Below are positions 17,173-44,899 of a stretch of DNA of 64,000 nucleotides, one piece after another. Position numbers and translations under genes: made by a program. The DNA comes from Bryobacterales bacterium. Its GTDB lineage: Bacteria; Acidobacteriota; Terriglobia; Bryobacterales; UBA6623. The notes beneath the pieces were generated by a model that was given only the letters and a program-made list of their open reading frames with translations, searched no databases and was not told where the DNA came from. Where the stretch lies: contig JAJDTX010000003.1 of assembly GCA_022826925.1 (NCBI GenBank), positions 62,001 to 126,000 of the forward strand. The letters are read 5' to 3'. The first letter of the stretch is position 1. Every line of letters starts with the position of its first letter.

Positions 17173-17950
17173 GGAGCGGCGCATCGGCAGCCGCGGTCTC
17201 GTCCGGGTATTCCACGCTCACTAGGAAGAGTCCCCGAGCCGGAGCGGTGGGACCCGCTTCGCGGCGGTCGCGGGCGGCGAGGATGCGATCGATGTCATCG
17301 GGCTGGAGATTGCCCCGACCGACTTCTAGCAGCGTGCCCACGAAGTTTCGCACCATCCGGTACAGGAAGCCCGAACCGCGCACGCGGTAGACCAGCAAAT
17401 CGGCCTCTCTTTCCAGCACTGACGAGTACACCGAGCGCTCGGTTGATTCTTCGACACCGCCGCCGCTCGATGCGAACGAGCGGAAATCGCGGTCCCCGGC
17501 CAGTCGCGACGCCGCCGCGCGCATGGCGCCCTCGTCCAGCGGATACGGGTGCCAGTAGGTGAATCGAGCCTCGAAAGGCGGACAGATTGGCGCCCGCTGG
17601 ATTCGGTATTCGTAGGTCTTGGCCGTGGCCCAGTGGCGAGCGTGAAACCCTTCCGGCGCCAGGCGGGCGTCGGTCACTCGGATGTCGGCCGGCAAGAGGC
17701 GATTGAGCGCCTTGACCAGGCCATGGGCGGGAATCGGGCTGGCCAGCGTGCAAGAGCACACCTGGGCCAGTGCGTGCACGCCCGCATCGGTGCGTCCCGA
17801 ACCAGCGAGTTTGACCGGTCGTCCCTCGACCACCGCGAGCGCATCCTCGACGGTGCCTTGTATCGTCGTCTCGGCGGGTTGGACCTGCCAGCCGCTATAG
17901 GCGGTGCCGTCGTATGCTAGCGTGAGTCTCCAACTGCGCTCGCCAGCCAC
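17156..17950 (-). CDS. truA: tRNA pseudouridine synthase A
   Basis: Converts uridines 38-40 in the tRNA anticodon arm to pseudouridine. The 264-residue protein contains LAYDGTAYSGWQVQ at the N-terminus and the catalytic Asp55 in GSGRTDAGVHAL, followed by the FHARHWA and FLYRMVRN blocks. The start is a GTG at 17950, directly preceded by TATATT, which could belong to the promoter. The C-terminal residues are encoded antisense to the end of ispA. Confidence 0.96.
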   Translation of the reverse strand: MAGERSWRLTLAYDGTAYSGWQVQPAETTIQGTVEDALAVVEGRPVKLAGSGRTDAGVHALAQVCSCTLASPIPAHGLVKALNRLLPADIRVTDARLAPEGFHARHWATAKTYEYRIQRAPICPPFEARFTYWHPYPLDEGAMRAAASRLAGDRDFRSFASSGGGVEESTERSVYSSVLEREADLLVYRVRGSGFLYRMVRNFVGTLLEVGRGNLQPDDIDRILAARDRREAGPTAPARGLFLVSVEYPDETAAADAPLLNSSA

Positions 17951-18083
17951 AATATACGCAGCGTAGCGCTGTTCGCGGGTCGGTTCCCGGCACCTGTCGC
18001 GTAACCAGCGGACCCCCCGTAGCGTCTAATCTTTCTGGGATTCTGCATTCGCCTGCAGTGCTTTGGCCCCTATCCCCTCCCCT

Positions 18084-20033
18084 ATGAAGATTTGGACTGG
18101 CCAACTATCGCTGTTGCTGGTCGCAGCAGTGCTCCTGCAGCCGATCGCGAGCGCCCAGCAGATAAGGGCTAGGCCGGCCGACTACAGCATGGGCAACTCG
18201 GCCTGGCCGCCGTTCACCAACATCTTCAAGGCACCGGATGTTCCCGAGATCTCGCTAAGCAATTCCGGCCGGCTGGAAGGCCTGCTGCACGACGCGAAGA
18301 TCTATTTGTCGCTGGCGGACGCCTTGGCGCTGGCGATCGAGAACAACCTCGATATTGCGTGGGCCCGCTACGGCCCACAGAGCGCTGCCAACGACCTGAT
18401 GCGGGCCAAGTCGGGCGCGCAGTTGCGCGGCGTGCAGAACCAGATCAGCACGCTCTCCACGGGCCTCGGCGACACCGGTGGTGCCGGGCCCGCCGGCCAA
18501 GCCACAGGCATCACCCAGCGCGCCGGGGGCGGCGGCGCTGCCGGCGGCCAGGGCGGGGCGGCGGATATTGGCGATGCCAGCACTTTCTTTGGCACCCAGG
18601 CCGTGAATCTGGATCCCTCGATCTTCAGCAATGTCGATTGGGGGCACTTCTCCAATCCGCAGACCAGCAACTTCGTCACGGGCACGAACACGCTGGTGCG
18701 CGAGATCAGCAACTCGCAGCTCGGCGTTCGCACGGGCTTCATTTCCGGTGCAACGGCCGCGCTGATCTGGGCCAACTCGCGCAGCGACACCAACAGCGTG
18801 CGCACCAACTTCAACCCGTCGCTGGTCAGCGCGATTACGCTGCGCGTCACCCAGCCTCTGCTGCAGGGCTTCGGCGTGGCGGTCAACACGCGCAACATCA
18901 GCGTCGCGAAGAACAACAACGAGATCTCGAACCTTCAGTTCAAGCTGCAGGTCGAAGAGGTCGTCTCGCGGGTTGCCGGGATCTACTGGGGCTTGGTCTC
19001 GCTGCGGGCGCAAGTCGAGAGCCAGCGGCAGAACCTTGCCTTGGCGGAGAAGCTCTACAGCGACAACAAGCGGCGCGTCGAGATTGGGACGCTCGCGCCG
19101 ATTGAGATTATCCGCGCCGAAGCCGAAGTCGCGGCCCGCGAAGCAGACCTGACCGCGGCGCAGACTGAGGTGCAGTTGCAGGAGACCATCCTCAAGGACG
19201 CCATCAGCGTCAATGGAATCGCAAGCCCCACGTTGCTGCATGCCGAGATCGTGCCGACGCAAGACATTGAGATCGACCCAAGCGAGGTGTTCGAGCCGCT
19301 GCCCACTCTGATGGAGGTTGCGCTGGCGGCACGCGCGGACATGGAGCAGAACCGCCTGCGCCTCAACAACACCGATTTGGGCTTGATCGGCGTCAAGAAC
19401 GGCATGCTGCCCAGCGCGAACCTGATCGTGGACCTGACCAACAATGCGCTATCCGGATCGGAGAACGAACTCTTTAGCGGCTTGCCGGGCGAAAGTTCGC
19501 TGGTCTCGCCATACTTCCTCGGCGGGCTCGTCAACGCGGGCGGGCAGCTACTGCGCCGCAACTTCCCGGACTACCAGGTTCGGATGCAGGTCAACATCCC
19601 GCTGAAGAATCGCCAGGCTCGCGCCGATTACACCGCGGCGCTGCTGGAGAAGCGCCAGCAGGAGATTCGCTTCGTGCAGGCGGCCAACGCGATCCGGACC
19701 GAGGTGCAGTCGGCGCTGATCCGCATCCAGCAGGCGCGAGCGCGTTACGCAGCCGCGCTGAAGTCGCAGGACTTGCAGCAACAGACGCTGGATGCCGAGC
19801 AGAAGAAGTACAACCTGGGCGCGTCCACGATCTTTCAGGTCGTGCAAGCCCAACGGGACCTGGCGAACGCCCGCACCAGCGTGATCGCGACCCAGAACGA
19901 GTACGCCAATGCGCGAATCAACCTAGATCGCGCCACGGGCCATATGCTGACAGCGCATCATATCTCCATCGCCGAAGCGTATGATGGAGTCGTTAGCAGG
20001 CGGCCCGATCCGCTGCCGGTTTCCGCCCAGTAG
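18084..20033 (+). CDS. TolC-family outer membrane efflux protein
   Basis: A 649-residue protein with a signal peptide (MKIWTGQLSLLLVAAVLLQP, cleavage near SAQ) and two outer-membrane-efflux repeats. The first is around residues 230-370 with helices such as YWGLVSLRAQVES; the second is around 540-640 with ALKSQDLQQQTLDAEQKKY. TolC trimers form the outer-membrane duct for efflux pumps and type I secretion. Between residues about 127 and 162 there is a Gly/Ala-rich insert that ordinary TolC lacks. No adaptor or pump gene is adjacent, so its partner is unknown. Confidence 0.9.
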   Translation: MKIWTGQLSLLLVAAVLLQPIASAQQIRARPADYSMGNSAWPPFTNIFKAPDVPEISLSNSGRLEGLLHDAKIYLSLADALALAIENNLDIAWARYGPQSAANDLMRAKSGAQLRGVQNQISTLSTGLGDTGGAGPAGQATGITQRAGGGGAAGGQGGAADIGDASTFFGTQAVNLDPSIFSNVDWGHFSNPQTSNFVTGTNTLVREISNSQLGVRTGFISGATAALIWANSRSDTNSVRTNFNPSLVSAITLRVTQPLLQGFGVAVNTRNISVAKNNNEISNLQFKLQVEEVVSRVAGIYWGLVSLRAQVESQRQNLALAEKLYSDNKRRVEIGTLAPIEIIRAEAEVAAREADLTAAQTEVQLQETILKDAISVNGIASPTLLHAEIVPTQDIEIDPSEVFEPLPTLMEVALAARADMEQNRLRLNNTDLGLIGVKNGMLPSANLIVDLTNNALSGSENELFSGLPGESSLVSPYFLGGLVNAGGQLLRRNFPDYQVRMQVNIPLKNRQARADYTAALLEKRQQEIRFVQAANAIRTEVQSALIRIQQARARYAAALKSQDLQQQTLDAEQKKYNLGASTIFQVVQAQRDLANARTSVIATQNEYANARINLDRATGHMLTAHHISIAEAYDGVVSRRPDPLPVSAQ

Positions 20034-32644: not shown

Positions 32645-34144
32645 TCATTCTCCGGGAGCGGATGCGCTCTGGACGATGGCGGGCGATCGGTCGAGCAGAT
32701 TCTTGACGGTCGAATCCAGCTTCGTCGTCAGCGTGGCGGGAATCAGGCCGACCACGAAGACGCCGACTACCAGCGGGACGAGCGTAGCGATCTCGCGCGC
32801 GTTCAGGTCCGGCAGAGATTCGAGCGACGCGCGGGGCTGGCCCAGCACGACGCGCTGCAGCATCCAGAGCATGTACGCGGCTGCCAGCACGATCCCGCTC
32901 ATCGCGAGCAGGACCTTGAGCATGCCGCCGAAGGATGTGCCCAGCAGCACCAGGAACTCGCCCGTGAAATTCCCCATGCCGGGTAGCCCGAAGGAAGCCA
33001 TGGCGAAGATCGAAAGCAGGACGACGAATCGGGGCATGGGCTTCTGCAAGCCGCCGTAGTCGGCGATCATCCGGGTGTGCGTGCGGTCGTACAGGAAGCC
33101 GATGGCAAGGAACAGGGCCCCTGTCGACATGCCGTGAGCGAACATCTGGATCACGGCGCCCTCGATGCCCTGTTCGTTGAAGGCGAAGATGCCCAGGGTC
33201 ACGAATCCCATGTGGGAGATCGAGGAGTACGCTACTAGCTTCTTGAGGTCGGACTGGGCCAGTGCGAGGCACCCGCCGTAGATGATGCCGACGATGGAGA
33301 GCCACAGGATGAACGGGGCAAACTCGACGGATGCCTCGGGCAGGATCGGGAGGCAGATCCGCAGGAAGCCGTAGCCCCCCATCTTCAGAAGCACCCCCGC
33401 CAGGATCACGCTGCCGGCAGTCGGGGCCTCCGAGTGGGCGTCGGGCAGCCACGAGTGGAAGGGAACCATCGGCAGCTTGATGGCAAACCCTAGGAACATG
33501 AACGAGAAGATCCAGATCTGGACATCCTCGGGGATGGCATGCCCCACCATGGCCTGAATGTCGAACGAGCGGCCCGTCTGCAGGTACAGGGCGAGGATCC
33601 CGACCAGCATCAGCAGGCTGCCTGTCAGGCTGTAGAGCACGAACTTGATCCCCGCCTGGATCCGGCCCGGGCCGCCCCAGAGAATGATCATGAAATACAT
33701 GGGAATCATCGTGACTTCCCACAGCATGAAGAACAGGAACAGGTCGAGCGCGGTGAAAACGACGATCATCGCGCCTTCCACCAGCAGGATCAGGACCATG
33801 TAGGCCTTGACCTTGCTTGCGATCGAGGTCCATGAGGCGAGCACGCAGAGTGGGCCCAGCAGCGTGGTGAGCAGGACAAGGACCAGGCTGATGCCGTCGA
33901 CGCCGACCGCGTACTGGATGTTGAAGTTCTCCATCCAACTGGTTCGCTCGACGAACTGCATGCCCTCGATCGACGGATCGAATCTCCACCACAGCGCCGT
34001 GGACAGGCCCAGCGCGAGCAGGGAAACCCCCATGGCGACGCGACGGACCCACACATCGCCCCGAACGAACAGCAGGGCCACGATTCCGGCAAAAGGAACA
34101 GTGATCAACGACGTGATCAGGTGTTCTGTGAAGAGTGATGTCAT
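32645..34144 (-). CDS. NuoM-like proton-translocating membrane subunit
   Basis: A 499-residue multi-span protein of the NuoM/Mrp antiporter-like family. The conserved membrane Glu is in FMLWEVTMIPMYF and the key Lys in AIKLPMVPFHSWLPDAHSEAPT; a second Lys follows in GVLLKMGGYG. By sequence it is closest to complex I NuoM, yet it ends an operon with Mrp and DabA genes and without nuoA-K or nuoN. It may act as an additional ion channel of the Mrp-type complex. It begins 27 bases after the NuoL-like stop. Confidence 0.88.
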   Translation of the reverse strand: MTSLFTEHLITSLITVPFAGIVALLFVRGDVWVRRVAMGVSLLALGLSTALWWRFDPSIEGMQFVERTSWMENFNIQYAVGVDGISLVLVLLTTLLGPLCVLASWTSIASKVKAYMVLILLVEGAMIVVFTALDLFLFFMLWEVTMIPMYFMIILWGGPGRIQAGIKFVLYSLTGSLLMLVGILALYLQTGRSFDIQAMVGHAIPEDVQIWIFSFMFLGFAIKLPMVPFHSWLPDAHSEAPTAGSVILAGVLLKMGGYGFLRICLPILPEASVEFAPFILWLSIVGIIYGGCLALAQSDLKKLVAYSSISHMGFVTLGIFAFNEQGIEGAVIQMFAHGMSTGALFLAIGFLYDRTHTRMIADYGGLQKPMPRFVVLLSIFAMASFGLPGMGNFTGEFLVLLGTSFGGMLKVLLAMSGIVLAAAYMLWMLQRVVLGQPRASLESLPDLNAREIATLVPLVVGVFVVGLIPATLTTKLDSTVKNLLDRSPAIVQSASAPGE

Positions 34145-34171
34145 TAGGGCACCTTTTCGATCGCTACTCCG

Positions 34172-36283
34172 TCAGTTGGCCAGCAAGTACGTAAGGCCGA
34201 TCGCAAGCGACAGCCAGCACACGATGATTACCAGATGGTGGCGCAAGGTCCTGGGCCCGATCCGCTGCAGTGTCTCGCCGGTGTTGTCGGCGAGCCCGCC
34301 GACTCTCGGGACGGTCTCTTCCGTCACGGGCTTGTCAACAACGCGGAACAGCCAGCCCGATACCCGCACGAGCAGGTTCGTAGCCACCCGGGGCCCGCGG
34401 GTCACCAGGCCCGACTCGGCCAGCCTTTCCAGCCAAGCTGCGGTGCCGGTCACGAGACGGGCCACCCCGGTCACCGCGGGGTCGATCACGCCGCTTTCCG
34501 CCGACCCTTCGAGCACCCGAGCGCCCTCTCGCACCCCTGCCCCCACTTCGTGGACGGTCCGGTTGATGATGCGCTCTTCAAGCTGGTGCAACAACCAACG
34601 CGAGATCCTCAGGGCAGGGTTCACGGCAACCGCCCGGTGGATCTCGTCGAAGTAGAGCTTGTTCAAGAAGAGCACGTACGCTGTCTTGACCCATTCCCGA
34701 CGCGCGAAAGGAACCGCCGCGGGGCGCAGGTGGCAATAGTACGCGAAGCACCATCCCAAGATTGCAACTGCCAGCGACACCGCAAGTGCAACTGTCAGGC
34801 TCGCGTCGGCGGTCTCGGCCGGGAGCGCGCCAAGAGCTGGCTGCAGGAATTCGCTGAACCCTGACCACACCCCGGCCAGCAGGGCCGTTACCGCGATTCC
34901 GCAAACGGCCAGGCCTGGCAGGTGGGCGGCCGAGAACAGGCTTGGCCGGGCCTGAACGGACTTGCCGACTGTGGCGCCGAACAGCGAGACGACGCCGCGA
35001 AACGCGTAGACCGCGGTCAGGAACACGGCCGCGAGGGCCACGACCCAGAACGCGATTCGCGCTGACGGGACATGCTGCGAGTTCCAGAGCTGCTCGTACG
35101 GCCCGGAAAACAGGACCAGCGGCGGCACGCACGCGAGCAGCAGGGAGCCAGCCGCCAGCGGCCGGATCCGGCCGGGGGCAGCGTCGGCGTGCGCGTGCCC
35201 CCCGGTCGCCCAGAGGGAATCGCCTGTGGACAGGAACAGGTACGCCTTGAGAAATCCGTGCGCCAAGAGATGGAAGATGGCGGCCCCGAATGCGCCGACA
35301 CCGCACGCGAAGATCATGAAGCCGATCTGGCTGATCGTCGAGTAGGCCAGCAGCCTCTTGATGTCCGACTGGGTGAGCGAGACCAGCGCGCCGTAGAGTG
35401 CGGTGATCGCGCCAACGACCGCAATCGCTGCCATCGCGGACGGGGCCAGCAGCACCAGGGGGCTGAGCCGTGCGAGCAGGAAGGGCCCCGCGTTCACCAT
35501 CGTCGCGGCATGGATCAGCGCCGAGACCGGCGTCGGCGCCTCCATGGCGTAGGGCAGCCACACGTGCATGGGCACCTGTGCCGACTTGCCGATCGCCCCG
35601 CTGAGCAGGCAGAGCGCGATCAAGGTGTTCCGCTCGATTTCGAACCCGAACGCGCCGAGGGTCTGCCCTTGCATGGCCGGAGCTTGGGCAAGGATTTCCT
35701 GGATGTTGAAGGTCCCGTATGTGGCGAACGTGAGCACGACGCCGAAGCCGAGGCCGACATCGGCGACGGCGTTGACCAGGAATGCCTTTGTCGCCGCCTG
35801 GCCCGCTTCCCGCCTGTGTGCCCAGTGGGAGATCAGGAGATAGGAGCAGATTCCCATCACTTCCCAGCACATGTAGGTCACCAGCAGGTTGTCGCTCATG
35901 ACCAGCATCGTCATGGCGAACGTGAACAGGCCGATGACCGCGAAGAACTTGCGGTACCTCGGGTCGCCGGTCATGTAGCGGGCCGAGTAGACATGGACCA
36001 CGAAGCTGACCCCCGTGATGAGCGGGAGCAGCAACACGGTGAGCTGGTCGGCGTAGAGGCCGACCGTGACGACAAGCTCGCCCACGTCCAGGAAGCGGTA
36101 GAGCGGGATCGAGAGCGCTCCGTTTCGGGCCACCTCTGCCAGCGCCGCGATCGAGAGCGCGAAAGAGAGGCCGACTGCGGGAATCCCGACCCGGTGGCTG
36201 GCATCGCCGAAGCGACGCCCGGCCACCGCCAGGATCACGAAGGCGGCGAGCGGAAGGCCGGGAATCAGGGCAAAGATCGGCAT
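34172..36283 (-). CDS. NuoL-like proton-translocating subunit (candidate DabB/MrpA N-module)
   Basis: A 703-residue protein with the full NuoL core: YMCWEVMGICSYLLI (membrane Glu), then GKSAQVPMHVWLPYAMEAPTPVSALIHAATMVNAG (read in two parts, with the channel Lys) and a His-containing later helix. The C-terminal 180 residues include LYFDEI and a final membrane helix, reminiscent of the NuoL extension, though they are divergent and charged. DabB/MpsA proteins are also NuoL-like, so this is the best DabB candidate for the dabA gene of the same operon. Alternatively it replaces the N-terminal part of MrpA. It starts 45 bases after mrpD. Confidence 0.88.
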   Translation of the reverse strand: MPIFALIPGLPLAAFVILAVAGRRFGDASHRVGIPAVGLSFALSIAALAEVARNGALSIPLYRFLDVGELVVTVGLYADQLTVLLLPLITGVSFVVHVYSARYMTGDPRYRKFFAVIGLFTFAMTMLVMSDNLLVTYMCWEVMGICSYLLISHWAHRREAGQAATKAFLVNAVADVGLGFGVVLTFATYGTFNIQEILAQAPAMQGQTLGAFGFEIERNTLIALCLLSGAIGKSAQVPMHVWLPYAMEAPTPVSALIHAATMVNAGPFLLARLSPLVLLAPSAMAAIAVVGAITALYGALVSLTQSDIKRLLAYSTISQIGFMIFACGVGAFGAAIFHLLAHGFLKAYLFLSTGDSLWATGGHAHADAAPGRIRPLAAGSLLLACVPPLVLFSGPYEQLWNSQHVPSARIAFWVVALAAVFLTAVYAFRGVVSLFGATVGKSVQARPSLFSAAHLPGLAVCGIAVTALLAGVWSGFSEFLQPALGALPAETADASLTVALAVSLAVAILGWCFAYYCHLRPAAVPFARREWVKTAYVLFLNKLYFDEIHRAVAVNPALRISRWLLHQLEERIINRTVHEVGAGVREGARVLEGSAESGVIDPAVTGVARLVTGTAAWLERLAESGLVTRGPRVATNLLVRVSGWLFRVVDKPVTEETVPRVGGLADNTGETLQRIGPRTLRHHLVIIVCWLSLAIGLTYLLAN

Positions 36284-36328
36284 CCTAGCTAGTGCCCCCC
36301 GTCGTGCGTGCCGTGTCCGTCATGAGCG

Positions 36329-37798
36329 TCACATCCCGAGAGGCGCTGTGGCGTCTACCAGCAGGCCGACCACCTGGTCGTTCCAGATGCCCAGTCCCAC
36401 GATTGCCGCGACGAGGGCGGCCATGGTCGCGCGCAGCGGCCATGGCGTCTCCGGCTGGTGAGCGGAGGCGCTGTCGCTCCCTGCGCGAACAAGCTTCTCG
36501 AAGACTTGGGCGAAATAGCCCAGTGTGATGAGCGTGGTCAGCACGACCGCCGCGGCCGCGATATTGTTGTCTGCCTCCAGGGTGCCGAGCAGGATTCTCA
36601 GCTTGCCGAAGAACCCTCCCGTGGGAGGCAGGCCGACCATGCCGAGGCCAACCGCCACGAAGGTCACGATCGCCCACGGGTTCCGCACATGGGCGCGGCC
36701 CAGCTCGTCCAGCGTGGACGCCCCGTATCGCAGGGCCAGGAATCCGGCCAGAACGAACAGCGAGCACTGCATCACTGCGTCGTTGAGCAGGTAATACATA
36801 GCACCCGACAGGCCGGTCTCGTTGGCCTGCCCGACCCCGATCAGCACCAGGCCCACATGGGAGATTCCGCCATAGGCGAACATTCGCTTCAGCTCGCGCT
36901 GGCGAAGGGCAAGACAGGCCCCGGCGACCGACGCCAGGATGCCGAACGTGGTGACGAGAGCGAATATGGTGAGGGTCCCGCCGTCGGCGCTCGGCTGCAT
37001 GACCCAGTACAGAATCCGCGCCCAGACGAGAAGCGAGATCTTTGTCACCAGGCCGGCGAGCAGCGGCACGGTCGAGGCCGGCGCGTCGCTGTAGGCGTCG
37101 GGAAGCCAACCGTGCAGCGGCATGAGGGCCATCTTGATGGCCAGCCCGATGAACATGAAGATCAGACCGCCCATGACCGCCTTGGAGTCGAGCAGTCCGG
37201 GCAGCCGCTGGGACAGGTCGGCGATGTTCAGGGCGCCGGTCGCGGCGTAGAAGTACCCCACGCCCAGCAGGTAGAAGGCGGTCCCCAAGGCGCCCATCAA
37301 CAGATACCGGAAGGCCGATACGAGCGCGCGGCCGCCCGGGACGGCCACGAGGGCGTAGGCGGACAGCGAGACCACTTCCAAGAACACGAAGATGTTGAAC
37401 AAGTCGCCGGCATAGATGGCGCCGCTGAGCCCGGCGACCAGCAGCAGCACCATCGTGTAGTAGGGGACCGCGCGGCCGCCCAGCGGGCGATCCCCGAGCC
37501 CGTCGGCGAACAGAAGGCAGAGCACGCCCAGCCCGCTCACAACCGTGACCATCGTCGCGGCAAGCGAATCCGCGAGCCACTCGATCCCGATGGGGGGCAG
37601 CCATCCGCTGAACGAGTAGCGGATCTCTCCGTGAACGGACACCGACCACAGGCTCGCCACCGACAGCACGGTCATGCAGCAGATCGCGATGAGCGCAATC
37701 GGGCGGCACAGGGCCGGGCGCCGGTGGCCGGCCACTGGCATGGAGATTGCCGTGGCGAGCGGTGTGAGGAACACCAAGGCCGGGAGGTGCTCGGTCAT
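36329..37798 (-). CDS. mrpD: Mrp-type antiporter subunit D
   Basis: A 489-residue membrane protein of the MrpD/MnhD group. The membrane Glu is in NIFVFLEVVSLSAYALV and the Lys in LAIKMALMPLHGWLPDAYSDAP, with a second Lys in GLVTKISLLVWARI. It provides one ion-translocation path in Na+/H+ antiporter complexes. Its start overlaps the mrpC stop as ATGA. I call it MrpD, not NuoN, from its position after MrpC and from the MrpD-like spacing of these blocks. Confidence 0.88.
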   Translation of the reverse strand: MTEHLPALVFLTPLATAISMPVAGHRRPALCRPIALIAICCMTVLSVASLWSVSVHGEIRYSFSGWLPPIGIEWLADSLAATMVTVVSGLGVLCLLFADGLGDRPLGGRAVPYYTMVLLLVAGLSGAIYAGDLFNIFVFLEVVSLSAYALVAVPGGRALVSAFRYLLMGALGTAFYLLGVGYFYAATGALNIADLSQRLPGLLDSKAVMGGLIFMFIGLAIKMALMPLHGWLPDAYSDAPASTVPLLAGLVTKISLLVWARILYWVMQPSADGGTLTIFALVTTFGILASVAGACLALRQRELKRMFAYGGISHVGLVLIGVGQANETGLSGAMYYLLNDAVMQCSLFVLAGFLALRYGASTLDELGRAHVRNPWAIVTFVAVGLGMVGLPPTGGFFGKLRILLGTLEADNNIAAAAVVLTTLITLGYFAQVFEKLVRAGSDSASAHQPETPWPLRATMAALVAAIVGLGIWNDQVVGLLVDATAPLGM

Positions 37799-38172
37799 CC
37801 TAGCTTCTCCAGGACCTCGTCCTCGTCAAGGCTTCCGAACCTCCGGTAGATCCTCGAAACTAGCCCCAGCGAGACCCCCAGAGTCGCGATCTGGACGACG
37901 ATTGCCGTCAGGGTCAGCACTTGCGGGAGCGGGTTGACATAATCGTCCGCTCCGGGCGCCTCCACCCCGCCCAAGATCACGGGCACGGTGGCGTCCTCTT
38001 TGGCTCCCGTCGTGACGAGAAAGAAGATGACGCTGGTCTGGACAATGTACAGGCCGACAAGCTTCTTGACGTAGTTGTGGTGGGTGATCGTGATGTACAG
38101 CCCCCACAGCAGCAGCAGTACGAACGCGATGAGGTTGGGCCGGCGCAGGGCCGCTTCGATCAGCTCAAGCAT
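37795..38172 (-). CDS. mrpC: Mrp-type antiporter subunit C (NuoK-like)
   Basis: A 125-residue protein with three membrane segments and the NuoK/MrpC pattern: LLLWGLYITITHHNYVKKLVGLYIVQTSVIFFLV (read in parts) and, at the end, PLPQVLTLTAIVVQIATLGVSLGLVSRIYRR. It is one of the small Mrp subunits that couple the antiporter modules. Eight bases overlap mrpB and four overlap mrpD. Confidence 0.9.
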   Translation of the reverse strand: MLELIEAALRRPNLIAFVLLLLWGLYITITHHNYVKKLVGLYIVQTSVIFFLVTTGAKEDATVPVILGGVEAPGADDYVNPLPQVLTLTAIVVQIATLGVSLGLVSRIYRRFGSLDEDEVLEKLG

Positions 38173-38617
38173 CGGTCTTTCCGGCTGCGACGCTACGCGA
38201 CAGGCTGTACACGATCGAGACCGCTGCGACGGCGACGTCCAGCGCCACGCCTACCTGCGTCAGCAGGATGCCTAGGTACCGCCGGGCCGCGCTGTCGAGC
38301 CCCGGAATCGGGGCTTGCGAGTAGTTGAGAAACTCGCCGCCGCCGATCAGGCAAAGTCCGCCTACCGCAACGAAGAGGAGCAGTCCCACGCCGTCCCCCG
38401 CCAGCAGGCGCGTGGCCCGTTGTGCAGTCGCACTGTTCTCTCCGAACACGAGCAACCCGAAGACCAGGCTTGCCGCGATCATCACCCCCGCGACAAAGCC
38501 GCCGCCGGGCCCGTACTGGCCGAAGAACAGGACATAAAGCGCAAATAGCTGTACCAGAGAGACCAGCAGCGAGGCGGTTCTCCGGACGATGACGCTGCCA
38601 AACGGGGATTCGATCAC
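38165..38617 (-). CDS. mrpB: Mrp-type antiporter subunit B (MnhB domain)
   Basis: A 150-residue protein with about four membrane segments. The MnhB signature is clear in FFGQYGPGGGFVAGVMIAAS, and the later GGGEFLNYSQ and LTQVGVALDVAVAAVSIVYSL match the end of the domain. It overlaps the upstream MrpA C-terminal-module gene by four bases and mrpC by eight. Confidence 0.9.
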   Translation of the reverse strand: MIESPFGSVIVRRTASLLVSLVQLFALYVLFFGQYGPGGGFVAGVMIAASLVFGLLVFGENSATAQRATRLLAGDGVGLLLFVAVGGLCLIGGGEFLNYSQAPIPGLDSAARRYLGILLTQVGVALDVAVAAVSIVYSLSRSVAAGKTDA

Positions 38618-39144
38618 TCTGGATCCCTCCTGAGCAGGAGCCAGCAGGCAATGCCGGAAGTGAAGACAACGACCGTCTCGATCAGGGTGTCAAGGACGCG
38701 GTAGTCCATCAGGACGGACGTCACGACGTTGGGGGTGCGGGTGTCGGCGAGGCTGTTCTCGATGTAATGGGGGGACACATGCACGCTGGCCGGTGATGTG
38801 GGATCTCCGAAGGCGGGCAGGTCGTTCGCCGCGTACAGCAGGAGCAGGCCCAGAAGCGGCAGCGCGATCACGGCGATGAGCGGAGGCGGAGGCCTTCGGA
38901 TGCGGGTGTCCTCTGGAGAGGTCTGGGAGAGCGTCAGCAGGAAGAACACTGTTGCAAGCCCGGCTCCGACGACTGCCTCCACGAATGCGACGTCCGCCGC
39001 CCCCAGCCAAGCCCAGACCAGCGCGAGGAAGAAGCTGTATGCCCCGAGAATCAGCACGGCGCTGATCAGCTCCTTGACAATGATTGCCCCGGCAGCCGTA
39101 AGGATCAGCAGCGCGAGCAGGGGCAGCTCGAACGAATATGTCAT
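38614..39144 (-). CDS. Free-standing MrpA C-terminal module (MbhD + MbhE domains)
   Basis: A 176-residue membrane protein. Residues about 8-70 match the MbhD/DUF4040 domain (GAIIVKELISAVLILGAYSF and ADVAFVEAVVGAGLATVFFLLTL). The C-terminus NVVTSVLMDYRVLDTLIETVVVF matches the MbhE part of MrpA. In Bacillus-type Mrp these domains are the tail of a roughly 800-residue MrpA; here they form their own gene between mrpG and mrpB, while the NuoL-like part is at the end of the operon. Four-base overlaps occur on both sides. Confidence 0.85.
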   Translation of the reverse strand: MTYSFELPLLALLILTAAGAIIVKELISAVLILGAYSFFLALVWAWLGAADVAFVEAVVGAGLATVFFLLTLSQTSPEDTRIRRPPPPLIAVIALPLLGLLLLYAANDLPAFGDPTSPASVHVSPHYIENSLADTRTPNVVTSVLMDYRVLDTLIETVVVFTSGIACWLLLRRDPE

Positions 39145-39452
39145 CGCCGGTCCTCCGCGACAGGCTTCTGGCCCGACCGCAACGCTGCGCGGACGGTTGC
39201 GTGCGAAATGACGGGATTCACCAAGATCAGCAGCGCGAGCACGACAAGTATCCGGAATGTGTTGGTGCTGAATCCGTGGTAAGTCGCCAGTCCCATCAGG
39301 ACGAAGAAGGCGCCCAGGGCGTCAGTCAGCGAGACCGCGTGCGAGCGGGTGTATACGTCCGGCAGTCGCACCATCCCGACGGCCGCGACGACCAGGAAGA
39401 ACAGGCCGACGGCAATCATCACTGTCACAGCGACCGGCACTATGTCCTCCAC
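39141..39452 (-). CDS. mrpG: Mrp-type antiporter subunit G
   Basis: A 103-residue protein with three membrane segments and the MnhG pattern GLFFLVVAAVGMVRLPDVYTRSHAVSLTDALGAFFVLMGL (read in parts; the RLPDVYTRSHA block is diagnostic). Its start lies 12 bases inside mrpF and its stop overlaps the next start by four bases. Confidence 0.93.
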   Translation of the reverse strand: MEDIVPVAVTVMIAVGLFFLVVAAVGMVRLPDVYTRSHAVSLTDALGAFFVLMGLATYHGFSTNTFRILVVLALLILVNPVISHATVRAALRSGQKPVAEDRR

Positions 39453-39700
39453 CTCTCGGTCAGGTACTTGGTGATTGCCAGCACGCCCACCAGGTTCAGA
39501 AGCGCATAGCCGGTCGAGATGTCAACGAACATTTCGACTCGTTCGTACACGGTTCCGATCACGACAAGCAGGATGATGGCCTTGGTGGAAATGCCGTTCA
39601 GCCCTAGCAGGCGATCGAACACCGTCGGCCCCCGGACGACCCGGTACAGGTACATCACGATCAGGATCGCGATGACGTCCAGAACGAAGAGGAGGCTCAT
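39440..39700 (-). CDS. mrpF: Mrp-type antiporter subunit F
   Basis: An 86-residue protein with three membrane segments. RVVRGPTVFDRLLGLNGISTKAI is the typical MrpF block (RGPTxxDR), and the C-terminus YALLNLVGVLAITKYL also fits. ATGA overlap with mrpE; 13-base overlap with mrpG. Confidence 0.93.
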   Translation of the reverse strand: MSLLFVLDVIAILIVMYLYRVVRGPTVFDRLLGLNGISTKAIILLVVIGTVYERVEMFVDISTGYALLNLVGVLAITKYLTERWRT

Positions 39701-40191
39701 CTCTGCCCGCCCCCGGCAGGGAAGACCGTGGCCACCATCTTCTCAAGCCTCTGGCTGATCACATCTCCGGTCGAGTCCTCGTCCAGCGCGTGCACGATTA
39801 GTTCCTCTGAATCCGCCTCGACAGTGACAGTGCCCGGCGTCAGCGTGATGGAGTTGCCCATCAGCAGAACTGCCTCCTCGCTGCCCAAATCGGCCCGGTG
39901 GCGAAAGAGCACGGGCTTGATGGGCAGCCGCGGATGAAGGATGAGATACGAAACGTGAATGCCGCTGACGAGCATCCGGCTGAACAGCCACGGAATGTAC
40001 AGCAGCGCCCTCCACCAGCGAATGAGGTAGGTCCGCTCGGCGCGCAGGTCTGTCCGCAGCAGCGCGACGAGCAAGGCCGCGCCGAGGCCAACCGCCATGT
40101 GCAATGCGTTGAAGCTCTCTGAAAGCATCAGCCACAGCACGAACAGGAGGGCTGTCCAGTAGGCCAGGCGCTTGGTGTAGAGAGTGCTCAT
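39697..40191 (-). CDS. mrpE: Mrp-type antiporter subunit E
   Basis: A 164-residue protein with two N-terminal membrane helices (LAYWTALLFVLWLMLSESF, then LHMAVGLGAALLVALL) and a cytosolic MnhE domain containing GNSITLTPGTVTVEADSEELIVHALD. From the ATG at 40191 (MSTLYTKRL) it starts 5 bases after the dabA stop, so dabA and the Mrp genes form one unit. Confidence 0.92.
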   Translation of the reverse strand: MSTLYTKRLAYWTALLFVLWLMLSESFNALHMAVGLGAALLVALLRTDLRAERTYLIRWWRALLYIPWLFSRMLVSGIHVSYLILHPRLPIKPVLFRHRADLGSEEAVLLMGNSITLTPGTVTVEADSEELIVHALDEDSTGDVISQRLEKMVATVFPAGGGQR

Positions 40192-40196
40192 CGCAG

Positions 40197-42974
40197 TCAG
40201 GCCGCCGCCTCGAGAGTCAGTCGTGTCCAAGTCGCATCAGTGCCGTATCTTCGGAACTCGTTCCGGTCGGCATCGAAGGCTAGCAGGTTCACCCACTGGT
40301 TGTGAAACAGAGCCTGCAGGATCTCGTGCTTAGCGATGATCCCGGAAATCCTTTCCGCCGGCGCGTCGATGACGGCTAGCAGGCGCATCGGTTCGTGGTA
40401 GCGGCGCGGCCCGTCAATCACGCCCTGCACTGGCAGGCCGCCCTGCAGGTCGCCTTGGCTGCCCAGCATCACGCCGACCCCGCCCACCACGTTGTGGATC
40501 ACCTTGCTCCCGCTTCCGTAGACCCATGGATCGGCCGAGGAGAAATAGTACTCCATGTTAATCCACTCCCCGACGATGAGCGGAGCGGTCATGATGCGTT
40601 CGAGGAAGCCGCCGTCAGGGTCGCTGGCCGGGTCGTAGGAATGCAGAAACGACCGCGCCTCCAGATCCAGCCCCTTGGTCAGCCAGCGCCTGCCGATCAG
40701 AAACGCCGCGTTGCTGGAGAGCCCCCATTCCGGGCGCGGATTGGCCCAGTCCACGCTGCGTCCGATCGCGTGGAGCATGGCGCGGCGCGCGCTCAGGCCT
40801 CGCGGCGCCCCGGGCAGCTTGGCGATCCGCTCGCTGGCCTGCGCCACCCCGGCCGAGGCCAGGTTCCGTTCCAGCCGGCTGAGCTCCTCCCGGTGGCTCG
40901 ATGGCAGGTCGATCAGGTCGAAGAATGAGACGCGGTCGGTGGCAGTGTCGTGCTTGGCCGGGACGAACCAGACGTCGTCGGGAATCTGGAGGCCGCTCTC
41001 GGCCACGGCCCGGCGGACAACCGGGTCGTTCGCCATCGTGGCGAACACTCGCGCGTTCGGATCGCCGTGCGCTCCCCCGCAGGCGCCGCAGTTGTAGGCC
41101 GCCGCGTACGGGTTGTTGTCGGACTCCGAGCCGTGCCCGCACACGACCACGAGCCGGGCCATCGGGTCGGTCAGCCCGATCATCCGCAGGCCGCCTCCGA
41201 CGAAGCCAGCCCTCTCCTCGATGGTGAAGCCGCTAGGCCCGACCGATTCGACCTCGGCCGTGTCCAGCGTAAAGCTCGTCTCCAGCTTGGCTCGGAACCG
41301 CCTCGCCAGCAACGAACGGATCGCGGCGTAGGGCCGTTGGAACAGGGTCTTGCCGACCAAGGCGACGCTGAACAGCAGGCCAAGCACGTCGACGAGCACG
41401 AACGAGCCCAGGGGGTGCTGCTTCAGGTCGTGGAAGAGCTCGTCTCCGAAGCGCCGCCAGCGCGTGCCTGAGGCATACTTCGCCAGCGGTGTTTCCTCGC
41501 CGGGCCGCGGCTCCTCGTCAACTGCGCGGGGTGGCTTCAGCAATACGGGGCACAGCGCGAGGCGGTCATGGCTGTCGAACGCCTCGTGACTGAAGGGAAC
41601 GCCGAAGAACCCTGCATAGCCGAAGGTTTCGTAATTGCCGGAGGCCTCGATGTGTCGCCGGAACGGCTCGGAACGGGCATCGATGCAGAAGATCAGCTGC
41701 GCGTCCGGCCGGGAGCTGGGCTCCCGTTCCTCCCGGCGGTGTCCCGCCAGCTTGCCCATCAGATGGTCCGCGTAGGTGTCTTCGTAGGCGGCCAGCCACA
41801 CCGGCCCGTGCTGATCTTCAGGAAAGCGCTCGAGCCAGCCCAGCAGGGTCCCGGCTCCGTCGCCGGCCAGCTCGCGGACCTGTTCCGGAGTCAGCCCTAG
41901 GACTACGGCCAGCTGGTACAGGCGGCCGACCGCGAGGTCGCGGGCGCCTGCCTCCCCCCCGCGGCCCGCTTCCTCGCGCGCCCAGGCGCGGATCCCGTCC
42001 AGGGTGCCGGGCACGCCTAGTTCATTGCGGCAGGCGGCCGCGACCAGCTCGACCTCGTAGAATAGCCTCACGGCCAGGTAGTCCACCAAGTCGATGGGGT
42101 GCTCGCGCTGGGCCGGGTACTGCGGGTTCTCGCTCCTCCAGCGCGCGAATCCGGTCCAGCCCGGCAGCTGCGCGAACATGCGCGACTGGTAGTCGTTCCA
42201 TCGTTCCGGGGGGATGCCGAGCCGCTCCAAGCCCTCTTGGACCCAGGCCTCGGCGGCGTCCGGCAGCGCGTCCACCTTCGCTGCGAAGTCGGCGACGCCC
42301 AGGAATCGACCTGACCGGTCCCGTCTCGCCAGGTCGCGCCAGCAGCGATAGAAGCCCTCTTGCCGGGAAGGCATTCCCCAGCCGGCCATGCCTTCGTCGA
42401 GGAACGAGGCCGACCACTTGATCATCTCGTCGTTGATCGAGTCCACGACCGGCTGGCCGGCCAGCTCAGCGACCCAGTCGCTGAGGGTTCTCGCCGGCGG
42501 CAGGTCCTGCATCCTGTCGTGGTTGCCGTTTCCGTTCCCGGGGCAGGCCTCTGAGGCGGCTGCCAGCAGCTCCGTGCTGCCCTCTTCTCTGGCCTGCCAA
42601 GCAAGCACCGCCGGAGAGGGGGCCTCCACGCCTTGCGTCAACTGCGCCCAGACCACCTCGTCCGGGTCGAGGGCCCGGCCGCTGACGTGCACGGCCCCTT
42701 CGGAAATGTCGGGGCCTAGCCGGGCCAGCGCCCGGCGCAAGTGTGCGTCCGAGATCCGCCCGGCACGCCGGAAGGCCCGATACTCGCTGCCTGAAAGAAA
42801 GCCGGCCCCCCCGATCATCCCAGCCGCCTCGCGCACGCCCTGGTCGAACGGAAGGTCTTCGTAGCCGCGCACAGGATTGCGGTAGGCGAAGGTCTTCAAG
42901 GGCCAGATCTGGGCCGCGGGGCGAGCCGCTTCAAGGACCTGCTCGCGCAGTGCTTGGGTTTGGTCGGGACTCAT
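40197..42974 (-). CDS. dabA: DabA-type inorganic carbon transporter subunit (DUF2309/UPF0753)
   Basis: A 925-residue protein of the DabA/MpsB family. With a NuoL-like partner (DabB/MpsA) it is thought to hydrate CO2 or move bicarbonate by cation-gradient-driven vectorial chemistry. The carbonic-anhydrase-like zinc site is complete: Cys430 and Asp432 in LIFCIDARSEPFRR, His614 in VVVCGHGS and Cys629 in YNCGACGG. The His-to-Cys spacing of 15 is the same as in studied DabA proteins. It lies 32 bases after sulP and 5 bases before mrpE, all on one strand. Most unusual is its fusion into a whole Mrp operon. Confidence 0.94.
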   Translation of the reverse strand: MSPDQTQALREQVLEAARPAAQIWPLKTFAYRNPVRGYEDLPFDQGVREAAGMIGGAGFLSGSEYRAFRRAGRISDAHLRRALARLGPDISEGAVHVSGRALDPDEVVWAQLTQGVEAPSPAVLAWQAREEGSTELLAAASEACPGNGNGNHDRMQDLPPARTLSDWVAELAGQPVVDSINDEMIKWSASFLDEGMAGWGMPSRQEGFYRCWRDLARRDRSGRFLGVADFAAKVDALPDAAEAWVQEGLERLGIPPERWNDYQSRMFAQLPGWTGFARWRSENPQYPAQREHPIDLVDYLAVRLFYEVELVAAACRNELGVPGTLDGIRAWAREEAGRGGEAGARDLAVGRLYQLAVVLGLTPEQVRELAGDGAGTLLGWLERFPEDQHGPVWLAAYEDTYADHLMGKLAGHRREEREPSSRPDAQLIFCIDARSEPFRRHIEASGNYETFGYAGFFGVPFSHEAFDSHDRLALCPVLLKPPRAVDEEPRPGEETPLAKYASGTRWRRFGDELFHDLKQHPLGSFVLVDVLGLLFSVALVGKTLFQRPYAAIRSLLARRFRAKLETSFTLDTAEVESVGPSGFTIEERAGFVGGGLRMIGLTDPMARLVVVCGHGSESDNNPYAAAYNCGACGGAHGDPNARVFATMANDPVVRRAVAESGLQIPDDVWFVPAKHDTATDRVSFFDLIDLPSSHREELSRLERNLASAGVAQASERIAKLPGAPRGLSARRAMLHAIGRSVDWANPRPEWGLSSNAAFLIGRRWLTKGLDLEARSFLHSYDPASDPDGGFLERIMTAPLIVGEWINMEYYFSSADPWVYGSGSKVIHNVVGGVGVMLGSQGDLQGGLPVQGVIDGPRRYHEPMRLLAVIDAPAERISGIIAKHEILQALFHNQWVNLLAFDADRNEFRRYGTDATWTRLTLEAAA

Positions 42975-43006
42975 CGAGGTGCTAGGCCTGGCCGCTCAGG
43001 ACTTCT

Positions 43007-44596
43007 TTACTTCTTCGTGCGGGCTGCAGTGGGATCGTCCGAGAAGGGGCGATGTCCATCCAGACCCTGGATCTCGAGACGCGCCCCCTCTTCTTCGAAT
43101 TCTTTCTCCATTTCGCGCAGCCGGTCCATGACCGTGTGATCGACGAGCGCGGTGCCAGACAGGTCAAGCCGGACCCGGGTTTCGCCCTTGAGGGCCTCAA
43201 GCCGCTTCTTGAGGCCGATCCAGGTCGAGAACACGGCCGAGTCGCTCACTGTGACGGTGGCTCCATCCTCGGAACGGTCTACGGCAGCACGAAGCCGGAA
43301 CAGCGAGGCGACCGGCACGCCGTTCACGAGGTGGATGATGACCTTGACCAAGATCCCGATCCCGATCCCTACGAGCAGGTCCGTGGCCAGCACTCCGACG
43401 ATCGTGGCGACGAAGATGACGAGCTGCTCGCGGCCCACGTGGTACATGTGCACGAACTCCTTCGGCGAGGCCAGCCGGAAGCCGGTAAAGACCAGCATCG
43501 CTCCGAGGGCGGCCAAAGGGATCATGTTGATCAGCGCGGGTGCAAGCGCCACAAAGACCAACAGGAACATGCCGTGGTGCATGTTCGCGAATCGGGTCTT
43601 CGCCCCGTTGTCGATGTTCGCCTTGCTGCGGACGATCTCGGAGATCATCGGCAGGCCTCCCACCAGCGCGGAGGCCGTGTTCCCCACTCCGATCGCCAGC
43701 AGGTCGCCATCGTAGTTGGTCTTCCTGCGGTACGGGTCGATCTGGTCGACCGCCTTGGCGCTGAGCAGCGACTCGAGGCTGCCGATCAACGAGAAGAGAA
43801 TGATGTACTTGACCCCTGTCGCGGTGGCGACGCCGGAAAAATCCGGGAACGTCAGGGCGCCGAACATATTGGACGGAACGTCGACGAGGAACTCGCGCCC
43901 CAGGCCGTAGTGCAGCCCTAGCGGCACAGTGACTAGCACGACCACGAGCGGTGCCGGTATGGCCCTCAGGCCCGGAATCTTCAGGAACGGATATCCGAAC
44001 ATGATGACCAAGCTGATGATGCCGATCAGGCCCACTTGGGGGTGCATGTCGGTGAAGTAGCTGGGAATCCTGGCCAGCAATTCGAGCGGGGTCCCCTCCG
44101 AACCGAGCCCTAGGGTGACCGGTAGCTGCTTGGCAAAGATAATCACGCCGATCGAGGCGAGCAGCCCGTGGACGGCGGCCGGGGGGAAGAACTCGCCCAA
44201 GATGCCGGATCGGAATACGCCGAAGAGAATCTGGATGACGCCTGCGACGACGCCCACGCCCAGGGCCAAGCGGTACGCCTCGATGTCCGCGGCCGGATCG
44301 CGGCCGGCGGTGAAGCCGAAGTCCGTCACGCACCCGATAGCGATCACGATGAGGCCGGCCGCCGGGCCCTTGATCGTCAATTCGGAATTGCTGAAGACGG
44401 TGCCGACGATCCCGCCGATGATTGCGGTGAAGATCCCCGCAATGGCCGGGTAGCCGCAAGCCAGCGAGATTCCGAGGCAGAGCGGCAGCGCGATGAGGAA
44501 GACCAGGAATCCTGACAGCAGGTCAGGCCCCCAGTAGCGCTTAAAGCCCGATCCGTTTCCTTGCGGAATGTCCCCGGTGTCGACCATAAGAGACAT
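43007..44596 (-). CDS. SulP-family anion transporter with STAS domain
   Basis: A 529-residue SLC26/SulP protein. The membrane core begins RYWGPDLLSGFLVFLIALPLCLGISLACGYP and contains the repeated half-helix region NSELTIKGPAAGLIVIAIG; the cytosolic C-terminus (about residue 425 on) is a STAS domain. Within SulP, BicA-like members carry bicarbonate with Na+, others sulfate. Location directly before dabA supports bicarbonate here, but this is inference. The start could be 44596 or the ATG nine bases later, because TATCCT immediately precedes the first one. Confidence 0.92.
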   Translation of the reverse strand: MSLMVDTGDIPQGNGSGFKRYWGPDLLSGFLVFLIALPLCLGISLACGYPAIAGIFTAIIGGIVGTVFSNSELTIKGPAAGLIVIAIGCVTDFGFTAGRDPAADIEAYRLALGVGVVAGVIQILFGVFRSGILGEFFPPAAVHGLLASIGVIIFAKQLPVTLGLGSEGTPLELLARIPSYFTDMHPQVGLIGIISLVIMFGYPFLKIPGLRAIPAPLVVVLVTVPLGLHYGLGREFLVDVPSNMFGALTFPDFSGVATATGVKYIILFSLIGSLESLLSAKAVDQIDPYRRKTNYDGDLLAIGVGNTASALVGGLPMISEIVRSKANIDNGAKTRFANMHHGMFLLVFVALAPALINMIPLAALGAMLVFTGFRLASPKEFVHMYHVGREQLVIFVATIVGVLATDLLVGIGIGILVKVIIHLVNGVPVASLFRLRAAVDRSEDGATVTVSDSAVFSTWIGLKKRLEALKGETRVRLDLSGTALVDHTVMDRLREMEKEFEEEGARLEIQGLDGHRPFSDDPTAARTKK

Positions 44597-44602: not shown

Positions 44603-44899
44603 CAGGATTCGGAGCTGCGACCGCCGCGTCGCCCCGGCTATCGCAGGGATCTGCACCGGGGGACGATTCTGCTAGGGCCGGCGCGCGAGGGCGGGCCGAG
44701 GTCTGCGTGCCGCAGCCGGAGGCCGTGCACTTGCTTGGACCGGCGCCTTAACGGGGCGGGCTAACGCGCGCCGAGTGGTTCGGAGCACGAGGGGCGGACG
44801 GTGCAGCTGGTGCAGGACACGACGATCGCTGGCAGCAACTGTCCCCGCATGCTTCTGCGGGCCCTCGGCGTTCGCAGCCCCGCTGAGACTGCGACTTGC
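44597..44899. other. Spacer upstream of the sulP-dabA-mrp operon
   Basis: A 303-base GC-rich gap between the lipoprotein gene (its 3' end) and sulP. It must hold the promoter of the large operon if that is separate. A stem CCCGCA/TGCGGG with a six-base loop lies at 44844-44861, 55 bases before... the end of the lipoprotein gene on the plus-strand scale, without a T tract. No gene is supported. Confidence 0.4.

Follow-up and report, generated by a model that had tools for sequence, protein, structure and literature searches.

We analysed a stretch of 64,000 nucleotides (the window; positions 62001-126000 of contig C114) from the genome of a bacterium of the order Bryobacterales in the phylum Acidobacteriota, a genome of 5.97 Mb in 196 contigs. 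Eleven genes lie in a row on its minus strand, reading from 44596 to 32645: sulP, dabA, mrpE, mrpF, mrpG, a gene for the C-terminal module of MrpA, mrpB, mrpC, mrpD, and genes for a NuoL-like and a NuoM-like subunit (Table 1). A preliminary description of this DNA had named the same set in the same place on one strand, and all eleven were recovered by matches to Pfam, TIGR and NF profiles.

Pfam matches represent each of the Mrp subunits B, C, D, E, F and G in the cluster. The MrpA C-terminal module has no antiporter half attached, the NuoL-like half being a separate gene after mrpD; it matches the C-terminal part of MrpA in 7d3u_A and the D and E subunits of the membrane-bound hydrogenase and sulfur reductase (MBH/MBS). 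An in-frame GTG at 44656 is a possible alternative start of sulP, whose product gave a weak STAS_2 match under the family cut-off and scored below the cut-offs of TIGR00815 (166 bits vs 380) and of the BicA model (120 bits vs 880). Among the 11 cluster genes and 10 flanking genes scanned, neither the redox arm and quinone module of complex I (NuoB, C, D, H, I) nor NiFe or sulfur-reducing catalytic subunits were found.

Table 1. Genes and features of the eleven-gene cluster, in reading direction
Feature	Positions	Strand	Evidence
sulP, SulP-family anion transporter, 529 aa from ATG 44596	43007..44596	-	PF00916 183 bits
dabA, CO2-hydrating subunit, 925 aa	40197..42974	-	PF10070 853 bits, full length
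DabA hydrophobic finger helix, ~residues 520-545, with Asp529	41340..41417	-	alignment to 9rd0_A
mrpE, 164 aa, ATG 40191	39697..40191	-	PF01899 108 bits, scored on longer frame from 40230
mrpF, 86 aa	39440..39700	-	PF04066; best solved matches MBS/MBH subunits 6u8y_B, 6cfw_B
mrpG, 103 aa	39141..39452	-	PF03334; TIGR01300 above cut-off
MrpA C-terminal module (MbhD+MbhE), 176 aa	38614..39144	-	PF13244 and PF20501; NF009159 above cut-off
mrpB, 150 aa	38165..38617	-	PF04039
mrpC / NuoK-like, 125 aa	37795..38172	-	PF00420
mrpD-like antiporter subunit, 489 aa	36329..37798	-	PF00361 183 bits; best solved match MBS 6u8y_H
NuoL-like subunit, 703 aa	34172..36283	-	TIGR01974 492 bits (cut-off 407.5)
NuoL-like extended lateral segment, ~residues 515-678, 164 aa, 27-residue period	34250..34741	-	length and periodicity comparison
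NuoM-like subunit, 499 aa	32645..34144	-	TIGR01972 602 bits (cut-off 263.8)

The genes are tightly packed. The stop of dabA at 40197 and the ATG of mrpE at 40191 leave a gap of 5 bases, exactly as previously described. The other gaps measure 32 bases (sulP-dabA), 45 bases (mrpD-nuoL, the largest) and 27 bases (nuoL-nuoM), and the genes overlap at all remaining junctions; the spacing between mrpD and nuoL and between nuoL and nuoM ranges from 25 to 195 bases across 12 named relatives. A promoter scan limited to sigma-70 gave no promoter-like site on the gene strand, neither within the cluster nor upstream of sulP, and a single one in the region on the opposite strand, while 4 terminator-like sites were observed vs 6.1 expected from shuffles. 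These scans say little, so that spacing and conservation alone speak for an operon. Three of the 132 gene calls in relatives were short stubs (mrpE in L016 and L022, sulP in L019), which we read as queries starting upstream of the true start, as those genes score intact in the gene survey.

We then asked how widely this arrangement occurs. DabA was present in 28 of 61 genomes near the window, in 29 places, and we surveyed 35 stretches around DabA, made up of the 28 non-window places and seven new ones from a phylum search. The complete eleven-gene order on one strand was found in 14 of these stretches, which together with the window makes 15 genomes, all of one family (f1) of the Bryobacterales: 11 from genus g1, one from g3 and three from g6. 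The cluster is thus carried by 15 of the 18 genomes of this family, and all 15 genomes with the cluster type of DabA have all eleven genes in the same order and on the same strand. Of the other three, G013 carries a DabA-NuoL-NuoM locus devoid of Mrp genes, and no DabA match was obtained in G014 or in G011, which is 74% complete. The preliminary description had said that an order confined to one genome would speak against its reading; within the family this case is excluded by the 15 genomes from three genera. The DabA of carriers is as little as 52% identical to that of the window with the gene order unchanged, and nine flanking genes that we tested were common only to the closest relatives, with the exception of one gene in L017. 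This indicates that the conserved unit is the cluster and not the region. The co-occurrence of the eleven genes is not due to chance. At one locus (L037 of genome G006, 16755-19624), two genes assigned by the tree to NuoM and NuoN lie directly upstream of the cluster sulP on the same strand; none of the 14 remaining cluster stretches showed such complex-I-type genes there.

The other 21 DabA stretches, including that of G013, fall into two types: 12 loci with DabA upstream of NuoL- and NuoM-type genes (DABc) and nine with DabA downstream of a single NuoL-type DabB (DABs). Mrp genes near dabA were found in none of these 21 stretches of 11-20 kb each. A search of 257 genomes of the order with the DabA alignment matched 87, and scores of the cluster type (1445-1860 bits) were obtained only in the 15 carriers, the next-best score being 561 bits; the neighbourhood of dabA was inspected in 28 of the 87. 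In a phylum sample of 396 genomes, DabA was detected in 9 and MrpE in 76, and 60 further stretches around MrpE or complex I genes contained MrpE in 53 cases and DabA in none. An exact-short-peptide scan of 84,980 species with the window DabA, which reaches close relatives only, returned 12 loci titled Bryobacterales, Terriglobia or Acidobacteria, and the viral contigs scanned with the DabA alignment held no relative. Plasmid-borne DabA occurs in 123 records. The eight loci inspected all show DabB-DabA, with no Mrp gene annotated in a gene table that is incomplete. One of them, on a 23.7 kb plasmid of Mycolicibacterium aubagnense (L159), has consecutive genes for a DabB-type protein, DabA, a regulator and a carbonic anhydrase. 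In another, on plasmid 1 of Nitrobacter hamburgensis (L161), a set of DabB-type, hypothetical, DabA and PII genes occurs twice in tandem next to carboxysome genes.

DabA of the window matches DabA2 of the DAB2 system (phmmer vs 9rd0_A, E 1.5e-110). In the DAB2 structure, zinc is held by Cys351, Cys539 and His524, next to which lies an Asp353-Arg355 dyad; DabA2 also extends a finger into DabB2, where Glu444 occupies the place of Lys399-Asp400 of NuoL; the substitutions E444A and E444Q abolish activity (PMC13144422). By alignment to 9rd0_A, the equivalents in the window are C430, C629, H614, D432 and R434, and D529 for Glu444. The zinc and active-site residues are kept in all 44 aligned DabA (15 of the cluster, 12 DABc, nine DABs and eight plasmid-borne). 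The finger acid is Asp in 15/15 cluster DabA and Glu in 9/9 DABs and 8/8 plasmid DabA, and it is absent from 12/12 DABc. Asp for Glu is a conservative change, and judged by alignment the cluster has the finger acid of DAB/Mps systems.

The partner subunit shows the corresponding change. In transmembrane helix 12 (TM12) of the NuoL-like subunit of the window, K399-D400 is replaced by P395-Y396 (codons 35096-35101), and the pair reads Pro-Tyr in 13 and Thr-Tyr in two of the 15 cluster NuoL. Lys399-Asp400 is kept in Escherichia coli and in 5/5 acidobacterial complex I NuoL, and 6/6 MrpA have Lys-Glu. The lysine is another residue in 8/8 acidobacterial DABs DabB; among eight plasmid DabB it is another residue in five and an alignment gap in three. 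NuoL has lost the TM12 Lys-Asp and DabA keeps the finger acid, a matched exchange which suggests that DabA and NuoL fit each other. The remaining channel residues E144, D178, K229, S250, H254, K305, H334, H338 and K342 are kept in 15/15 cluster NuoL. We propose from these residues that the NuoL-like subunit is the docking subunit of DabA, of DabB type with the body of a NuoL.

A different picture emerged for the DABc loci, in which 12/12 NuoL have an alignment gap at the TM12 lysine and most channel residues of NuoM are changed, the TM12 acid of NuoM being mostly kept (Glu in nine, Asp in two, Gln in one of 12). The lost finger acid together with the changed NuoM residues suggests a different coupling route for DABc.

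A second feature of the NuoL-like subunit is its lateral segment, which we measured between TM15 and the last helix. This segment has 80 residues in E. coli NuoL and 82, 84, 109, 109 and 111 in five acidobacterial complex I NuoL. The 15 cluster NuoL have 133, 137, 139, 139, 164 (seven proteins) and 165 (four proteins) residues, 1.7-2.1 times the E. coli length, with length steps of ~27 residues. The same interval appears within the sequence: pooled over 8 of the 15 cluster NuoL, self-similarity reached z 17.1 at lag 27 and z 9.8 at lag 54, a calculation that counts related sequences as independent. Single proteins at lag 27 gave z 8.6 (L036) and z 4.7 (window), and the window gave z 3.6 at lag 54. 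A stretch of 27 residues, if helical, would span ~40 angstrom, which is near the length of one antiporter-like subunit. In variants of complex I, a 26-residue insertion in the lateral helix accompanies an extra pump subunit (PMC9040806), and a lengthened NuoL has also been described (PMC6606698). The long periodic segment is the best hint in the sequence of one long complex. Among the complex I loci, L100, L106 and L104 have NuoL lateral segments of 109-111 aa, about one unit of 26-27 residues above E. coli, with three pump genes each.

To place the antiporter-type subunits, we built a quick tree of 129 proteins covering nine of the 15 cluster loci and eight of the nine DabB loci. This tree and those of DabA and SulP were quick searches with support from the Shimodaira-Hasegawa-like approximate likelihood ratio test (SH-aLRT) only, in which long branches meet; only the NuoL tree was a careful one. 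Cluster MrpD groups with the first antiporter (D1) of split-type Mrp (support 100), and NuoM of the cluster joins the NuoM of complex I (100), separate from DABc NuoM. Cluster NuoL shares a clade (100) with the NuoL of complex I, with DabB and with DABc NuoL, the order of branching inside it not being settled; in the careful tree it forms its own clade (100/100). DabA of the cluster is also a clade of its own (99), and cluster SulP adjoins the SulP of four DABc loci, far from three other SulP copies. Profile scores agree: the cluster profile of MrpD scores split-type Mrp at 302-413 vs 120-243 for the type with fused MrpA, and the profiles of the MrpA C-terminal module (A'), B and C also score the split type higher, the ranges for E, F and G overlapping. 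Cluster NuoM keeps the complex I channel residues E144, K234, K265, H322, H348 and E407 in 15/15, and cluster MrpD keeps E133, K217 and K395 (E. coli NuoN numbering) in 15/15, with Thr in place of NuoN K247 as in other Mrp. By these relationships the cluster is a hybrid that has a MrpD of split-type Mrp and a NuoM of complex I type. We also considered that its NuoL and NuoM might be those of DabA-NuoL-NuoM operons into which Mrp was inserted, and rejected this because NuoM groups with complex I, NuoL is a separate clade and the residues differ.

Stand-alone split-type Mrp operons with the genes E-F-G-A'-B-C-D followed by D2 and mostly D3 are common in Acidobacteriota (L113-L118 without L116, L129, L130, L133, L136, L138, L139, L143 and others); D2 and D3 form their own clades in the tree.

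We lean towards the view that the eleven gene products form a single long membrane complex, in which an energy-coupled (vectorial) carbonic anhydrase of DAB/Mps type sits on an arm like that of complex I and Mrp. Assembly into one complex is likely, and we also infer the order of subunits, the helicity of the lateral segment, the coupling ion, the direction and the substrate of SulP. In this complex the arm would replace the usual small membrane partner of DabA. DabA would hydrate CO2 at its cytoplasmic zinc site and insert its finger helix into the NuoL-like subunit, where the Asp would substitute for the lost Lys-Asp of TM12. NuoL, NuoM and MrpD, each of which keeps the main residues of an ion channel, would stand in a row that MrpC, the MrpA C-terminal module, MrpB and MrpE-F-G extend, and the lateral helix of NuoL with its 27-residue period would tie the row together. 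Inward flow of H+ and/or Na+ would drive CO2 hydration, so that bicarbonate accumulates, and SulP may offer a second bicarbonate route. The presence of the Mrp module makes coupling to Na+ plausible. More tentatively, the cluster could represent a new class, in which a three-channel arm of complex I type and an Mrp Na+ module carry a carbonic anhydrase head at the distal NuoL end via the finger, the length of the arm is set by countable lateral-helix units of 27 residues (~40 angstrom if helical), and Na+/H+ gradients are coupled to CO2 hydration. The preliminary description had also proposed one large complex, and its reading stands in part: the genes are a conserved unit, the NuoL-like subunit bears a DabB-type signature matched to the DabA finger, and its long periodic lateral segment fits a single long complex with the Mrp set as part of it. 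Its premise that known DAB/Mps systems pair DabA with a single DabB was incomplete, given operons with SulP and NuoM reported in PMC5700660, the third protein of DAB1 and the 12 acidobacterial loci without Mrp.

The cluster belongs to the DAB/Mps kind as a variant with Mrp and complex-I-like parts, and we regard this combination as new. Parts of it are already in print: sulP and nuoM were noted near ybcC-nuoL, with multi-ion complexes proposed (PMC5700660), and DAB1 has a third protein besides DabA-DabB (PMC13144422, PMC7714395). A full-text literature search in which we recognised no description of DabA with an Mrp set among the top papers listed left most subscription papers and preprints outside and is therefore weak evidence. 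With DAB2 of Halothiobacillus neapolitanus and the homologous MpsAB of Staphylococcus aureus the cluster shares the zinc site, the finger acid and a NuoL-type partner without the TM12 lysine. DAB2 consists of two proteins, and its DabB2 is described as having a short lateral helix and no E144 (PMC13144422); in contrast, the partner in the cluster is a NuoL of full length that retains E144 and whose lateral segment has 133-165 aa, and genes for NuoM, Mrp and SulP adjoin. Clade C of the COG3002 operons, in which ybcC precedes nuoL and SulP and NuoM are often present (PMC5700660), corresponds to our 12 DABc loci. These resemble the cluster in the relative order DabA-NuoL-NuoM (12/12), and SulP precedes DabA on the same strand in five of them and on the other strand in one. 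They differ from it in the absence of Mrp from the stretches, the loss of the finger acid, the TM12 region of NuoL, which does not align, the mostly changed residues of NuoM, and the separate clades of both L and M.

The Mrp part of the cluster is like split-type Mrp (CPA3) of Acidobacteriota in its order E-F-G-A'-B-C-D and in its MrpD, which groups with D1, but it has NuoL-like and NuoM-like subunits for D2 and D3, and dabA and sulP in addition. It also differs from Mrp systems in which MrpA is fused from a NuoL-like half and the C-terminal module, as the module stands alone here. In the membrane arms of MBH/MBS of Pyrococcus furiosus, an Mrp module is joined to a foreign catalytic part. MBH/MBS (6cfw, 6u8y) are the best solved matches of cluster MrpD and MrpF; unlike in these enzymes, DabA would be the catalytic part instead of a hydrogenase or sulfur reductase, with a probable place at the NuoL end. 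Like the cluster, 2M complex I of Nitrospira and Complex_I_3 of Manganitrophaceae have extra pump subunits and a lateral helix longer by ~26 residues (PMC9040806, PMC6606698). Those are redox enzymes for which one extra unit is described, whereas cluster NuoL would have two or three in comparison with 80-84 aa.

Several observations weigh against our favoured reading, in addition to the pooling of related sequences in the periodicity scores. E144 is retained by every cluster NuoL, and its loss is a mark of DabB (Ile151 in DabB2); it is lost in 8/8 acidobacterial DABs and 8/8 plasmid DabB and kept in 12/12 DABc. Its partner R175 is Ala in 14/15 cluster NuoL, but this change is not specific to DabB because MrpA is also changed there (Gly, 6/6). 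In the careful tree cluster NuoL is joined to DabB weakly (76/52, as read from the printed tree). Amphipathicity of the lateral segment against shuffles, computed for five of the 15 members, gave z 4.2, 3.4, 2.7, 1.8 and -0.5 (L045). Two complex I NuoL of the same family (L100, L106) have one additional unit (109 aa) at loci where three pump genes were seen, which weakens the hint of one long complex, and PMC9040806 contains a further case in which lateral length is not a strict count of subunits. AlphaFold2 models, built from alignments of 13 related rows, were poor (mean predicted local distance difference test score 45.6 for the NuoL-like subunit and 60.2 for DabA). DAB2 is reported to use protons and not to need Na+ (PMC13144422). 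Of the carbonic anhydrase families only the beta type was searched for; it is present in 13 of the 18 genomes of the family, the window genome among them, which makes it less evident why DabA would be needed. Finally, the survey covers essentially one phylum, Acidobacteriota.

The operon might instead encode two machines, a DAB transporter of DabA and the NuoL-like, perhaps also the NuoM-like, subunit, and a separate Mrp-type Na+/H+ antiporter, sharing or without an MrpA antiporter half, co-expressed with it to balance the pH against the protons that CO2 hydration releases. The DABc loci, where DabA-L-M occur without Mrp, the common split Mrp operons without DabA, and the DabB-type signature of the NuoL-like subunit all fit this explanation. 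We nevertheless consider it unlikely, since M of the cluster groups with complex I, unlike M of the 12 DABc loci, and L has its own clade, and since the Mrp part has neither an MrpA antiporter half nor D2 and D3 of the split type. An Mrp module of this composition would need the NuoL-like subunit. In addition, E. coli NuoL has a far shorter lateral segment than cluster NuoL, and mrpEFGA'BCD lies between dabA and nuoL-nuoM in 15/15 genomes.

A reversed direction, in which hydration of metabolic CO2 powers the export of H+ or Na+, seems improbable to us. A pump driven by an exergonic reaction of unknown nature was outlined in 2017 for ybcC (COG3002) operons, the number of ions moved rising with the number of membrane genes (PMC5700660). 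The scarcity of RuBisCO in the family and the complete main channel residues of L, M and D would suit a CO2-powered ion pump. The free energy of CO2 hydration, however, is small at physiological ratios, too small to move several ions per CO2. Furthermore, CO2 hydration by DAB2 is reported to be driven by the membrane potential, and uptake to be sensitive to uncouplers (PMC13144422).

It is very improbable that the genes for the NuoL-like and NuoM-like subunits are a spare complex I set lying by chance beside a dabA-mrp cluster: M does group with complex I NuoM and L scores above the NuoL family cut-off, but complex I L, M and N are encoded elsewhere in the genome, the 49 kDa subunit is found in 15/18 genomes of the family, cluster L lacks the K399-D400 kept by all six complex I L aligned, and both genes are in the cluster in 15/15. 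Common ancestry of the neighbours without common function can be given as little credence; all carriers found belong to one family, but the order is kept down to 52% DabA identity while the flanks changed, and the changes in DabA finger and NuoL TM12 match.

If one complex forms, it would link DAB/Mps, Mrp and complex I, which are usually treated apart, and provide a natural test of long-range energy transmission by antiporter-like modules without redox chemistry, with CO2 hydration at the end opposite to the engine of complex I. The exchange of charged residues between NuoL TM12 and the DabA finger opens the mechanism of DAB2 to comparative genetics, and the 27-residue period suggests a simple way in which arm length could be set. 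The cluster also suggests a powered supply of bicarbonate in bacteria where RuBisCO was not detected.

RuBisCO was found in two of the 18 genomes of the family and not in that of the window, and a role linked to this enzyme was rejected for that reason. In the 16 genomes without a match, bicarbonate would mostly serve biosynthetic carboxylations. The two RuBisCO-positive genomes, G012 and G013 (93% and 97% complete), gave no match to the 49 kDa subunit of complex I and had no PF00361 proteins beyond those of their own dabA clusters. In the window genome, complex I L, M and N lie on contig C108 and a classical fused Mrp operon is present elsewhere, so that the NuoL, NuoM and Mrp genes of the cluster are not the only copies. 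The complex I NuoL of this genome (L098; C108:14599-15482) is split over two frames matching PF00361 at 1-97 and 96-294, which is a frameshift or an assembly error.

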